From Dialister hominis (GTDB taxonomy: Bacteria; Bacillota; Negativicutes; Veillonellales; Dialisteraceae): a DNA stretch of 64,000 nucleotides. Both the position numbers and the translations under genes were made by a program. Shown here one piece after another: positions 27,024-32,213 of the stretch. Location of the stretch: positions 1,585,501 through 1,649,500 of the forward strand of contig NZ_AP019697.1 in the NCBI RefSeq assembly GCF_007164725.1, given 5' to 3'. The notes beneath the pieces were generated by a model. It was not told the origin of the DNA and did no database searches. It worked only from the letters and a program-made list of their open reading frames with translations. How positions within the stretch are numbered: the stretch's first letter is position 1; the number at the start of each line of letters is the position of its first letter.

Positions 27024-28835
27024 GGGGCTGTGACAAAATGGTTAATCATTTTGTTGCAGCCTCTTTTTTGCGTCTTTATTTCATCATTTTTAGCTCTGCT
27101 GTAAGCCTTTTACGTAAAAATATGCGTAAGCCCCCTTACCCCCATAAGACTTTTAATTATATTGTCTTAGGCGGCAATCCTTATACGCATTATTTTTGTG
27201 ATGTATTTCCTTAAATTATAGCCAAGTGCTACCAGGTATAACTCGACTTTTACAGAATCTATCCTTTTTCTGACGATTCTTTTGTACCATCTGTCATGTT
27301 TCATGATTCCAAAAGTTCCTTCAGCCTGGATTGACCGGTTCATTCTTAGCGGGGCTCCATGGATGCTTTCCAGATTATCCTGAACCTCCTGGTACATGTT
27401 ATTCCGTTCTCTGCTCAATGAGATTCTTTTGTTCTTCGGGGTCTTTTTACATTGCTCTGCCAGCGGGCATCCTTGGCAGTCTTCGCATTCAAATACTTCC
27501 TCCTGCCTGCCGTATAAGTTCCCTCTGACCAGATGTCTATAGATAAATTTGAAAGCCCTGTCATTTGGACAACGGATGGTTCCATTCTCATCAACTCTAA
27601 AGTTTATTGGCCGAAACGGATTGGTATGGTATTTCTTGTCTTTCGTTTCTTTCTTGTACATGGGGAATTTCATATACTTTTCCATACCGTGCTGCTCGCA
27701 ATAGATGTAATTGTTGAAAGATCCATATCCTGCATCTGCCACAGGATACTTAGGATAAGCCCCATAGACTTCGTGGAATTCCTCCATCAGCGGTACGAAG
27801 CAATCCATATCTGAACGATACTGGTTAACATCAATTACGGCAATAAATTCATCGGCAACACCTATTTGGACATTGTATGCAGGCAGAAGCTGATCATTTC
27901 CCTTGTAGTCCGACTTGATTCGCATGAATGTTGCATCCGTATCGGTCTTCGAGTAACTGTTTCTGGAAGTACCGCATATCTGTATCTTCTCAACATATTC
28001 TTCAAGTTTTGATGTATATGCCTTAAGCTGCTCATACTTGCGTTGATGATCGGACTTGCGATGCCCGCTTCCATGAACAAAGGCCGTCTCATCAATCTGC
28101 CAGATTTCTTTTAATTTATCCAATACCAGACGCAGATAGTCCGGAGCGTATTCTGTATTGATGTTTACACTCATATGGTCATACTTAAGATCATCATTGA
28201 GTAACTCAAAAAGGCTGGTAATCTTGGCAAAATGCTTGTAGCGAGATTTTTCAGCGGATTTCTTCCATACCCAGCTATATTTATTTGCGTTCGCTTCAAA
28301 CTTGGAACCGTCAATATATATATGCTGCAAATCCACGTTGAGTTTGCCGCAGAGTTCTTTCGTAATTGAATAAAAGATATCCTTGAGAGAATACTTAAGA
28401 AAGCCCTTCACGAAATGACAGAATGTCCGATAGGATGGGGCTTCATAATTCATCAGGTACATATATCTGATGTTAACCCTGCAATTATCTTCAAGTTTTC
28501 TAAAAGAGCAATATCCTTCTTCTGCGAAACCATAGATGATCGTTTTCAGCATGTTGACGGGATTATACCTGGGTCTGCCAGCGCCACGCGTCGGTATGTA
28601 ACGAAGGTACTTTTTAAGATCGATTTCCTCCATAAATCTGTCATACATTAAAACAGGATCATCGACATTGAGAATCTCAGAGGGAAACATTGGCAAAATG
28701 CCTCGTTCTGCGGTAAAATGATTGCTAGTGTTGTTATTTTTCATTGCAAAAAAATTATAACACGAAAGGCTCTGCCCCGGACCAAATGATCCGGGGCAGA
28801 GCCCTTTTTGTTGGGATGAATTTTGTCACATCCCC
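27024..28835 (-). mobile_element. Insertion sequence copy A (IS1182-type), 1812 bp, intact
   Basis: The ends are inverted repeats: GGGGCTGTGACAAAAT at 27024-27039 and, read inward from 28835, GGGGATGTGACAAAAT. The 27024 side forms a long hairpin (27025-27062) with a T-run on both strands. One 525-residue transposase fills the element. Copy B at 30403-32213 is almost identical and oppositely oriented. A second hairpin, GGCTCTGCCCCGG...CCGGGGCAGAGCC (about 28774-28804), sits inside the transposase-upstream end and could shield it from outside transcription. No target duplication could be identified. Confidence 0.9.
27167..28744 (-). CDS. IS1182-family transposase, copy A
   Basis: A 525-residue DDE transposase. 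The N-terminal DUF772-like domain has RGAGRPRYNPVNMLKTIIYG (residues 53-72). The catalytic region includes YIDGSKFEANANKYSW and VADAGYGSFNNYIYCEQ, followed by a cysteine cluster (CEDCQGCPLAEQC) and the C-terminal AEGTFGIMKHDRWYKRIVR. It differs from copy B at about seven residues, including R14/Q, H171/L and P465/L. It appears intact, and the near identity of the copies points to recent transposition. Confidence 0.93.
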   Translation of the reverse strand: MKNNNTSNHFTAERGILPMFPSEILNVDDPVLMYDRFMEEIDLKKYLRYIPTRGAGRPRYNPVNMLKTIIYGFAEEGYCSFRKLEDNCRVNIRYMYLMNYEAPSYRTFCHFVKGFLKYSLKDIFYSITKELCGKLNVDLQHIYIDGSKFEANANKYSWVWKKSAEKSRYKHFAKITSLFELLNDDLKYDHMSVNINTEYAPDYLRLVLDKLKEIWQIDETAFVHGSGHRKSDHQRKYEQLKAYTSKLEEYVEKIQICGTSRNSYSKTDTDATFMRIKSDYKGNDQLLPAYNVQIGVADEFIAVIDVNQYRSDMDCFVPLMEEFHEVYGAYPKYPVADAGYGSFNNYIYCEQHGMEKYMKFPMYKKETKDKKYHTNPFRPINFRVDENGTIRCPNDRAFKFIYRHLVRGNLYGRQEEVFECEDCQGCPLAEQCKKTPKNKRISLSRERNNMYQEVQDNLESIHGAPLRMNRSIQAEGTFGIMKHDRWYKRIVRKRIDSVKVELYLVALGYNLRKYITKIMRIRIAA

Positions 28836-28864
28836 TTTACTTTTTCGAAAAAGCGCGATATACT
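28836..28864 (+). promoter_or_regulatory. Promoter of the atypical tRNA gene
   Basis: TTTACT (28836-28841) and TATACT (28859-28864) have a 17-bp spacer. The mature tRNA 5' end is 16 bp downstream. The -35 box begins at the first base outside insertion sequence copy A, so the promoter survived the insertion or was partly created by it. Confidence 0.65.
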
Positions 28865-28880
28865 TAGAACAGTTTCTTAT

Positions 28881-28956
28881 GGCGGTGTAGCCAAGCGCTA
28901 AGGCGTGGGCCCCGCAAGGCCCTTATCCCCGTGTTCAACTCCGGGCACCGCCTCCA
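28881..28956 (+). tRNA. Atypical tRNA-Cys-like gene (candidate anticodon GCA, bulged T-stem)
   Basis: Acceptor strands GGCGGTG (28881-28887) and CACCGCC (28946-28952) pair fully; U73 and CCA are encoded, and U73 is a tRNA-Cys identity base. The D-stem is GCC/GGC, but the D-loop AAGCGCTAA lacks the usual GG. The T-arm has the loop TTCAACT and a stem broken by one extra T at 28932; it can be drawn as 7/5 or, with U28888-G28945 as an eighth acceptor pair, as 8/4 with one bulged base. The anticodon arm GGGCC/GGCCC leaves a six-base loop CCGCAA; GCA (28914-28916) is in place for Cys only if pairs open, and C replaces U33. It has a promoter and terminator. It may be a minor functional tRNA-Cys or a decayed one. 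Confidence 0.7.
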
Positions 28957-28966
28957 CCAAAAACAA

Positions 28967-28994
28967 AGCTCCGCAATCGCGGAGCTCTTCTTTT
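28967..28994 (+). terminator. Terminator of the atypical tRNA gene
   Basis: AGCTCCGC and GCGGAGCT form a perfect 8-bp stem with a four-base loop, followed by CTTCTTTT. It starts 10 bp after the CCA end. Confidence 0.85.
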
Positions 28995-30402: not shown

Positions 30403-32213
30403 GGGGATGTGACAAAATTCATCCCAACAAAAAGGGCTCTGCCCCGGATCATTTGGTCCGGGGCAGAGCCTTTCGTGTTATAATTTTTTACAATGAAAAA
30501 TAACAACACTAGCAATCATTTTACCGCAGAACAAGGCATTTTGCCAATGTTTCCCTCTGAGATTCTCAATGTCGATGATCCTGTTTTAATGTATGACAGA
30601 TTTATGGAGGAAATCGATCTTAAAAAGTACCTTCGTTACATACCGACGCGTGGCGCTGGCAGACCCAGGTATAATCCCGTCAACATGCTGAAAACGATCA
30701 TCTATGGTTTCGCAGAAGAAGGATATTGCTCTTTTAGAAAACTTGAAGATAATTGCAGGGTTAATATCAGATATATGTACCTGATGAATTATGAAGCCCC
30801 ATCCTATCGGACATTCTGTCATTTCGTGAAGGGCTTTCTTAAGTATTCTCTCAAGGATATCTTTTATTCAATTACGAAAGAACTCTGCGGCAAACTCAAC
30901 GTGGATTTGCAGCATATATATATTGACGGTTCCAAGTTTGAAGCGAACGCAAATAAATACAGCTGGGTATGGAAGAAATCCGCTGAAAAATCCCGCTACA
31001 AGCTTTTTGCCAAGATTACCAGCCTTTTTGAGTTACTCAATGATGATCTTAAGTATGACCATATGAGTGTAAACATCAATACAGAATACGCTCCGGACTA
31101 TCTGCGTCTGGTATTGGATAAATTAAAAGAAATCTGGCAGATTGATGAGACGGCCTTTGTTCATGGAAGCGGGCATCGCAAGTCCGATCATCAACGCAAG
31201 TATGAGCAGCTTAAGGCATATACATCAAAACTTGAAGAATATGTTGAGAAGATACAGATATGCGGTACTTCCAGAAACAGTTATTCGAAGACCGATACGG
31301 ATGCAACATTCATGCGAATCAAGTCGGACTACATGGGAAATGATCAGCTTCTGCCTGCATACAATGTCCAAATAGGTGTTGCCGATGAATTTATTGCCGT
31401 AATTGATGTTAACCAGTATCGTTCAGATATGGATTGCTTCGTACCGCTGATGGAGGAATTCCACGAAGTCTATGGGGCTTATCCTAAGTATCCTGTGGCA
31501 GATGCAGGATATGGATCTTTCAACAATTACATCTATTGCGAGCAGCACGGTATGGAAAAGTATATGAAATTCCCCATGTACAAGAAAGAAACGAAAGACA
31601 AGAAATACCATACCAATCCGTTTCGGCCAATAAACTTTAGAGTTGATGAGAATGGAACCATCCGTTGTCCAAATGACAGGGCTTTCAAATTTATCTATAG
31701 ACATCTGGTCAGAGGGAACTTATACGGCAGGCAGGAGGAAGTATTTGAATGCGAAGACTGCCAAGGATGCCCGCTGGCAGAGCAATGTAAAAAGACCCCG
31801 AAGAACAAAAGAATCTCATTGAGCAGAGAACGGAATAACATGTACCAGGAGGTTCAGGATAATCTGGAAAGCATCCATGGAGCCCTGCTAAGAATGAACC
31901 GGTCAATCCAGGCTGAAGGAACTTTTGGAATCATGAAACATGACAGATGGTACAAAAGAATCGTCAGAAAAGGGATAGATTCTGTAAAAGCCGAGTTATA
32001 CCTGGTAGCACTTGGCTATAATTTAAGGAAATACATCACAAAAATAATGCGTATAAGGATTGCCGCCTAAGACAATATAATTAAAAGTCTTATGGGGGTA
32101 AGGGGGCTTACGCGCATTTTTACGTAAAAGGCTTACAGCAGAGCTAAAAATGATGAAATAAAGACGCAAAAAAGAGGCTGCAACAAAATGATTAACCATT
32201 TTGTCACAGCCCC
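30403..32213 (+). mobile_element. Insertion sequence copy B (IS1182-type), 1811 bp, intact
   Basis: An inverted copy of the element at 27024-28835, with the same end sequences: GGGGATGTGACAAAAT at 30403 and, at 32213 reading inward, GGGGCTGTGACAAAAT. It is 1 bp shorter because of one T fewer in the run just before the transposase start. The 32176-32213 end hairpin lies 15 bp beyond the stop of rplQ, the last gene of the ribosomal cluster on the other strand. No target-site duplication was found on either single-copy or swapped-flank comparison with copy A. Confidence 0.9.
30493..32070 (+). CDS. IS1182-family transposase, copy B
   Basis: A 525-residue DDE transposase with the same domains as copy A: DUF772-like N-terminus, DDE core with YIDGSKFEANANKYSW and VADAGYGSFNNY, zinc-ribbon-like CEDCQGCPLAEQC and the AEGTFGIMKHDRWYK tail. 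Substitutions relative to copy A include Q14, L171, M284, L465, G496 and A501. It is open throughout and presumably active. Confidence 0.93.
   Translation: MKNNNTSNHFTAEQGILPMFPSEILNVDDPVLMYDRFMEEIDLKKYLRYIPTRGAGRPRYNPVNMLKTIIYGFAEEGYCSFRKLEDNCRVNIRYMYLMNYEAPSYRTFCHFVKGFLKYSLKDIFYSITKELCGKLNVDLQHIYIDGSKFEANANKYSWVWKKSAEKSRYKLFAKITSLFELLNDDLKYDHMSVNINTEYAPDYLRLVLDKLKEIWQIDETAFVHGSGHRKSDHQRKYEQLKAYTSKLEEYVEKIQICGTSRNSYSKTDTDATFMRIKSDYMGNDQLLPAYNVQIGVADEFIAVIDVNQYRSDMDCFVPLMEEFHEVYGAYPKYPVADAGYGSFNNYIYCEQHGMEKYMKFPMYKKETKDKKYHTNPFRPINFRVDENGTIRCPNDRAFKFIYRHLVRGNLYGRQEEVFECEDCQGCPLAEQCKKTPKNKRISLSRERNNMYQEVQDNLESIHGALLRMNRSIQAEGTFGIMKHDRWYKRIVRKGIDSVKAELYLVALGYNLRKYITKIMRIRIAA

Follow-up and report, generated by a model that had tools for sequence, protein, structure and literature searches.

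A conserved second tRNA-Cys with a bulged T-stem and a closed anticodon loop in Negativicutes and Campylobacterota, possibly reserved for a role outside routine decoding

A second tRNA-Cys gene lies between insertion sequences in Dialister hominis

The window analysed here, a stretch of 64,000 nucleotides (nt) from the Dialister hominis genome, carries an aberrant tRNA-Cys gene between two inverted copies of an insertion sequence (IS) (Table 1). The gene reads GGCGGTG-TA-GCCA-AGCGCTA-AGGC-G-TGGGCC-CCGCAA-GGCCCT-TATC-CCCG-(T)-G-TTCAACT-CCGGG-CACCGCC-T-CCA. As a first-pass annotation of this DNA had stated, it has a perfect 7-bp acceptor stem, U73 and an encoded CCA end, all read directly from the sequence. 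The extra T that was said to bulge the T-stem was confirmed at exactly 28932, between tRNA positions 52 and 53, and the variable loop is 4 nt long. The D-loop (AGCGCTA) had been described as lacking GG; the pair is indeed absent, but only G19 is lost, replaced by C, and G18 is retained. The anticodon arm is as odd as first described, with C rather than U at position 33: it consists of five Watson–Crick pairs, with an outermost U·U left unpaired, and a six-base loop closed by C32–G38. This layout, five unbroken pairs around a loop of six bases, is also the minimum-free-energy register of the Dialister anticodon arm. The canonical continuous 5-bp T-stem, G18G19, U33 and 7-base anticodon loop are thus all missing from the window tRNA.

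Table 1 Features of the tRNA-Cys locus in the window
Feature	Position	Strand	Basis
Flanking transposase gene (DDE_Tnp_1_6/DUF772), outside the tRNA system	27167..28744	-	
Promoter: TTTACT, 17-nt spacer, TATACT	28836..28864	+	Consensus scan; upstream block kept in relatives
Second tRNA-Cys(GCA), 76 nt with encoded CCA	28881..28956	+	Read from sequence; Rfam match; relatives
Anticodon arm, 18 nt, UGGGCC-CCGCAA-GGCCCU	28906..28923	+	Pair covariation, with 32:38 swapped once from C-G to G-C
Anticodon GCA, with C33 just before it	28914..28916	+	Read from sequence
Bulged U (52a) in the T-stem	28932..28932	+	Bulge-free register gives only 3/5 T-stem pairs
Intrinsic terminator of the tRNA gene	28967..28994	+	Hairpin 28967-28986; consensus scan
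Second flanking transposase gene, inverted	30493..32070	+	Element copy

ARAGORN did not call the tRNA at 28881–28956, and because it missed this gene such tRNAs are probably under-annotated. Rfam RF00005 matched it at 34.0 bits (cut-off 29), and a class covariance model built from eight members scored it at 101 bits, the window sequence itself being among the eight training sequences. The class-model score and the recurrence of the tRNA across species and phyla, described below, indicate that it is more than a chance resemblance.

The first-pass annotation had credited the gene with its own promoter and terminator; consensus scans located both, and both are kept in relatives. The promoter block TTTACTTTTTCGA-N-GCGATATACT is retained 5′ of the tRNA in D. 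succinatiphilus, Dialister UBA1703 and UBA7295, and DNF00626 has a related form of it. Three other Dialister species have a terminator hairpin at the same place, each with its own, unrelated sequence. The promoter spacer contains a palindrome, TTTTTCGAAAAA (window 28842–28853), which is partly conserved in Dialister and may bind a regulator. The 16-nt block TTTACTTTTTCGAAAA has no second exact copy within the window.

The two inverted IS copies are 99.2% identical over 1820 nt. Because the same left neighbour, a PMT_2 glycosyltransferase gene, immediately adjoins the tRNA in D. succinatiphilus and UBA1703, the insertions are younger than the tRNA. The IS copies, which the first-pass annotation had taken to suggest instability, are recent arrivals at an older locus. 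Among the genes immediately around the tRNA in Dialister, we found no connection with cysteine.

Compensatory changes support a bulged 7/5 tRNA

Same-genus genomes carry the tRNA at 100, 99, 99 and 82% identity, and one small-genome Dialister species lacks it. From its counterparts in D. succinatiphilus, UBA1703 and UBA7295, the tRNA differs by 0, 1 and 1 changes, both in loops, despite flanks that have diverged: the 60 nt 3′ of the tRNA align in these three species with 37–44 identities over 64–66 columns (about 58–68%, the shuffled mean being 0.48 per column, or 48%).

Projected onto a gapless eight-member alignment, the proposed fold leaves 97.6% of cells paired, with two-sided changes in 9 of 21 pairs. 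None of 500 shuffles came out as high, and slid registers of the same alignment give 30–44%. Positions 32 and 38 are paired in all 28 distinct sequences (C–G in 26, G–C in one and U–G in one), which shows that the short anticodon loop is real. This loop has six bases in Dialister and Campylobacterota and five in the remaining members; in the 28-sequence tabulation, three Dialister sequences are drawn in an alternative anticodon-arm register with a C·C mismatch. Pair 49:65 varies among C–G, U–A and U–G, and U8 and A14 are invariant. Compensation at 49:65 and the invariance of U8 and A14 support a predicted 7-bp acceptor stem with a bulged 5-bp T-stem (7/5) over an 8/4 arrangement for the class.

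U73 and the anticodon GCA are invariant across the class, and A37, A13:A22 and the 15:48 core pair are kept, the Levitt pair changing jointly from G15–C48 to A15–U48 in one member. Position 33 is C in most members and U or G in a few, those with U33 including Dialister UBA1703, Sulfurovum and one Hydrogenimonas. G19 is likewise lost in most members, and some keep G18G19.

Taken together, near-identity across Dialister beside diverged flanks and compensatory changes in the stems indicate that the tRNA is not decaying. The first-pass annotation had argued against simple decay from the promoter and terminator; conservation of the promoter, cross-species near-identity and stem covariation all agree with it. 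It had also proposed that random divergence in sister genomes, with no covariation of the odd stems, would speak for decay; no such divergence was seen, and the odd stems covary.

The odd tRNA recurs in two phyla

A pattern that forces the bulge, searched against an 85k-species GTDB collection, matched Dialister, 11 Succiniclasticum-type loci and Campylobacterota (Hydrogenimonas, Sulfurovum and further Campylobacterales), and every one of these matches has a closed anticodon loop. The reverse pattern, which requires G38 and leaves the T-stem free, has matches in 24 of 380 Negativicutes genomes (25 genes) and 10 of 299 Campylobacterales genomes (12 genes); the U52a bulge is present in all 12 of the latter genes. 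The bulge is obligatory in 21 of the 28 distinct sequences (52a is U in 20 and C in one); six can be redrawn without it, using a 5-nt variable loop and a U51·G63 pair, and one is ambiguous. The link between bulge and closed loop is strong in Dialister, Succiniclasticum, a third Negativicutes family (that of genomes G099 and G100) and Campylobacterota, and looser elsewhere. Under the class model, six-base-loop members score 95–105 bits versus about 72–77 for normal tRNA-Cys; five-base-loop members score about 74–85 bits, intermediate or overlapping with normal tRNA-Cys. We take the window gene to be a functional second tRNA-Cys belonging to a conserved class.

Variants and unusual arrangements were also seen. 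Two further genuine tRNA-Cys hits of the bulge-forcing pattern combine a U-bulged T-stem with a normal anticodon loop: one in Massilia sp. Mn16-1_5 (L063:1757-1831), where it is an extra copy alongside a normal tRNA-Cys, and one in Clostridia bacterium PG1894_211 (L068:3343-3417). One Succiniclasticum copy, from a metagenome-assembled genome (L065:1927-2003), has the 5′ acceptor strand AGAGGCG instead of GGCGGCG, through decay or assembly error. In Paenibacillus agricola (L072:4033-4126), unrelated 5′ sequence runs into the 3′ half of a U-bulged tRNA-Cys, a fusion that looks like an attachment-site remnant. Two Hydrogenimonas-type genomes carry paired odd tRNAs ~100 nt apart (L083, G384:C24:7608-7865 and G810:C1:1444716-1444959); in L083 the two odd copies lie on either side of the normal tRNA-Cys.

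A phage search gave no match to the odd tRNA, a plasmid search returned only normal-looking Bacillus plasmid tRNA-Cys genes, and among viral contigs none had the closed-loop pattern and one matched the bulge pattern by chance; an origin from phages or plasmids was dropped after these searches. One of the Bacillus plasmid genes, from B. amyloliquefaciens (L203:601-675; NZ_CP071971.1), has one extra T in the T-arm relative to its homologue L204, and both are unannotated in the PLSDB table.

Gene neighbourhoods and partner genes

We found no gene neighbour common to all carriers. In part of Succiniclasticum, the tRNA lies 3′ of cysK on the same strand, after gaps of 24–126 nt, with a terminator behind it; the 24-nt gap leaves no space for a promoter. 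The order of this cluster is T-box-metA-metY-cysK-tRNA-Cys* (the asterisk marking the odd tRNA), with a T-box specifier read by eye as Met, and downstream lie iscS/nifU, mnmA or amino-acid transporter genes, depending on the species. In another family the tRNA is divergent to metA (a gene named by eye). Campylobacterota carry it inside a Gly-Leu-Cys*-Cys-Ser tRNA operon, adjoining the normal tRNA-Cys, and in the family of G336–G342 it belongs to a Phe-Gly-Cys cluster. The T-boxes near the odd tRNA have AUG (Met) and AUC (Ile) specifiers, again read by eye, and no Cys codons. T-box feedback on cysteine was rejected, since the nearby T-boxes read Ile and Met.

The D. hominis genome is a single contig of 2,407,548 bases with 47 ordinary tRNA matches, representing 42 distinct sequences, exactly one of which is a normal tRNA-Cys (C1:1282398-1282471). 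The ordinary copy that the first-pass annotation had proposed looking for is therefore present, and the odd tRNA is not the sole tRNA-Cys of the genome. A dedicated second cysteinyl-tRNA synthetase (CysRS) is likewise excluded, because cysS is single-copy in each of the 21 genomes examined, Dialister included. For tRNA-Sec (RF01852), nothing in the D. hominis genome exceeded the cut-off, and the window tRNA has the anticodon GCA, not UCA. No SelB exceeded its cut-off in any of the carriers tested from Dialister, Succiniclasticum and Campylobacterota. Two genomes of genus g94 (family f29), G338 and G340, each have two genes of the SelB family that pass the curated cut-off, at about 398 and 333–336 bits, and the related G344 and G336 have one each. 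Across 24 genomes, a FemABX search found none in Dialister and two partial matches in total, and FemABX was set aside as the partner transferase because nearly all carriers lack it.

A tRNA-Cys that may be held out of elongation

U73 and GCA are the main identity determinants for CysRS (PMC9976931). Because these never change and each tested genome has one CysRS, this single, normal enzyme probably still charges the odd tRNA. The altered parts are those used by EF-Tu, the tRNA elbow and the ribosomal A site. EF-Tu and the ribosome would consequently use the odd Cys-tRNA poorly, largely excluding it from ordinary elongation. With charging determinants kept, EF-Tu- and ribosome-facing features altered, cysK just upstream in part of Succiniclasticum and a staphylococcal precedent at hand (see below), we read the class as putative chargeable tRNA-Cys isodecoders that stand largely outside normal elongation and have a specialised role in cysteine physiology, and we give this reading a probability of about 0.5. 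The likeliest roles would be that of a reserved cysteinyl donor to a non-ribosomal acceptor or that of a reporter of cysteine supply. The fuller proposal, a new class of cysteine tRNA spanning Negativicutes and Campylobacterota that is charged with cysteine and reserved for a non-ribosomal reaction or cysteine sensing, is more tentative. Several observations count against a reserved role: FemAB, a possible acceptor enzyme, is missing from nearly all carriers; the location in tRNA clusters in Campylobacterota and one Negativicutes family also fits translation; the retention of U33 or G18G19 in some members means that translation features are only partly lost; and the genes flanking the tRNA in Dialister are unconnected with cysteine.

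If a reserved Cys-tRNA does exist, common gut bacteria would have a new pathway that depends on Cys-tRNA. Two structural rules of elongator tRNAs, an uninterrupted T-stem and an anticodon loop with seven open bases, are broken jointly, and kept broken in one isoacceptor in two phyla. That this isoacceptor still obeys the rules for cysteine charging points directly to a job for tRNA-Cys other than routine decoding, and the carriers form a clear set of genomes in which to test such a special role.

The main rival is specialised decoding, in which the tRNA still translates, reading UGU/UGC slowly or inaccurately, acting as a near-cognate or UGA reader, or shifting frame through its six-base loop or, with the 32:38 pair opened, an eight-base loop. 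The invariant GCA, the embedding in tRNA operons and clusters and the U33 of some members all fit this. However, C33, loss of G19, a bulged T-stem and loss of the AAA36–38 stretch each weaken decoding, and loop sizes of five or six argue against one fixed frameshift function; we consider continued translation unlikely, if still to be reckoned with. A regulatory RNA or decoy with no need of charging, acting as a CysRS competitor, T-box ligand or anticodon-nuclease sink, would suit the location beside sulfur amino-acid genes in Succiniclasticum and metA in another family, and the altered anticodon loop could withstand a nuclease directed at the normal one. Against it, the nearby T-boxes specify amino acids other than Cys, Campylobacterota to our knowledge lack T-boxes altogether, and the complete retention of U73-CCA and GCA suggests charging; we judge a decoy improbable.

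Two further explanations receive very little weight. The first-pass annotation judged the gene to fit the modified 8/4 minor tRNA-Cys described by the Söll laboratory (selC*), which resembles tRNA-Sec and would work with SelA or SelB. Both are minor tRNA-Cys, and here too the acceptor and T stems can be drawn as a 12-bp branch containing a single bulged base. Yet the bulge is U52a rather than A51a, the variable loop is 4 nt in the window and 4–5 nt in the class, and covariation at 49:65 favours 7/5; a Sec or SelB link was also rejected for Dialister, which has neither tRNA-Sec nor SelB over the cut-offs and a single CysRS, and SelB stayed below the cut-off in the tested carriers from Succiniclasticum and Campylobacterota. 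Decay of a duplicated normal tRNA-Cys, with an IS copy on each side as a shield, would accord with the absence of an ARAGORN call, the loss from one Dialister genome and the IS on both sides, but the same sequence persists in species where these IS copies do not adjoin it, the stems have changed in compensatory fashion and the promoter is conserved. Both explanations are highly improbable.

Comparison with known tRNAs

Open-access searches turned up reviews of non-canonical tRNAs, none of them on this class, and a mention in the 2017 original report of selC* is possible. Bacterial tRNA-Sec (PMC5330540) likewise has a bulged base in a branch of 12 bp and differs in anticodon, variable arm and partners. 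The selC* tRNA-Cys has an 8/4 structure with an unpaired A51a, a long variable arm and a tRNA-Sec-like shape, and some selC* groups have their own SelB* and CysRS* (PMC7609411). Like the odd tRNA, selC* (Mukai et al. 2017, as described in PMC7609411) is a second tRNA-Cys in anaerobes with one bulged T-stem base; the odd tRNA differs in its 7/5 fold, U52a and short variable loop, and SelB*/CysRS* partners are missing in Dialister. Because three defining features of selC* were tested and all failed, we conclude that the odd tRNA is not selC*.

The non-proteinogenic tRNA-Gly isoacceptors of Staphylococcus aureus, which serve cell-wall synthesis and in which G18G19 is replaced by UU or CU, bind EF-Tu weakly (PMC4052509). 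They too are extra isoacceptors with a changed D-loop GG and an altered T-stem, thought to evade EF-Tu, and by analogy the odd tRNA would work like a non-proteinogenic isoacceptor. The staphylococcal tRNAs carry glycine and depend on FemXAB, whereas nearly all carriers here lack FemAB, and neither a T-stem bulge nor a closed anticodon loop is reported for them (PMC4052509). Canonical bacterial tRNA-Cys(GCA) shares with the odd tRNA the 7-bp acceptor stem, U73-CCA, GCA with A37, A13:A22, G15–C48 and the T-loop TTCRANY; what sets the odd tRNA apart is the U52a bulge, C33, the missing G19, a Watson–Crick 32:38 pair and a six- (or five-) base loop, in a gene that coexists with the normal copy.
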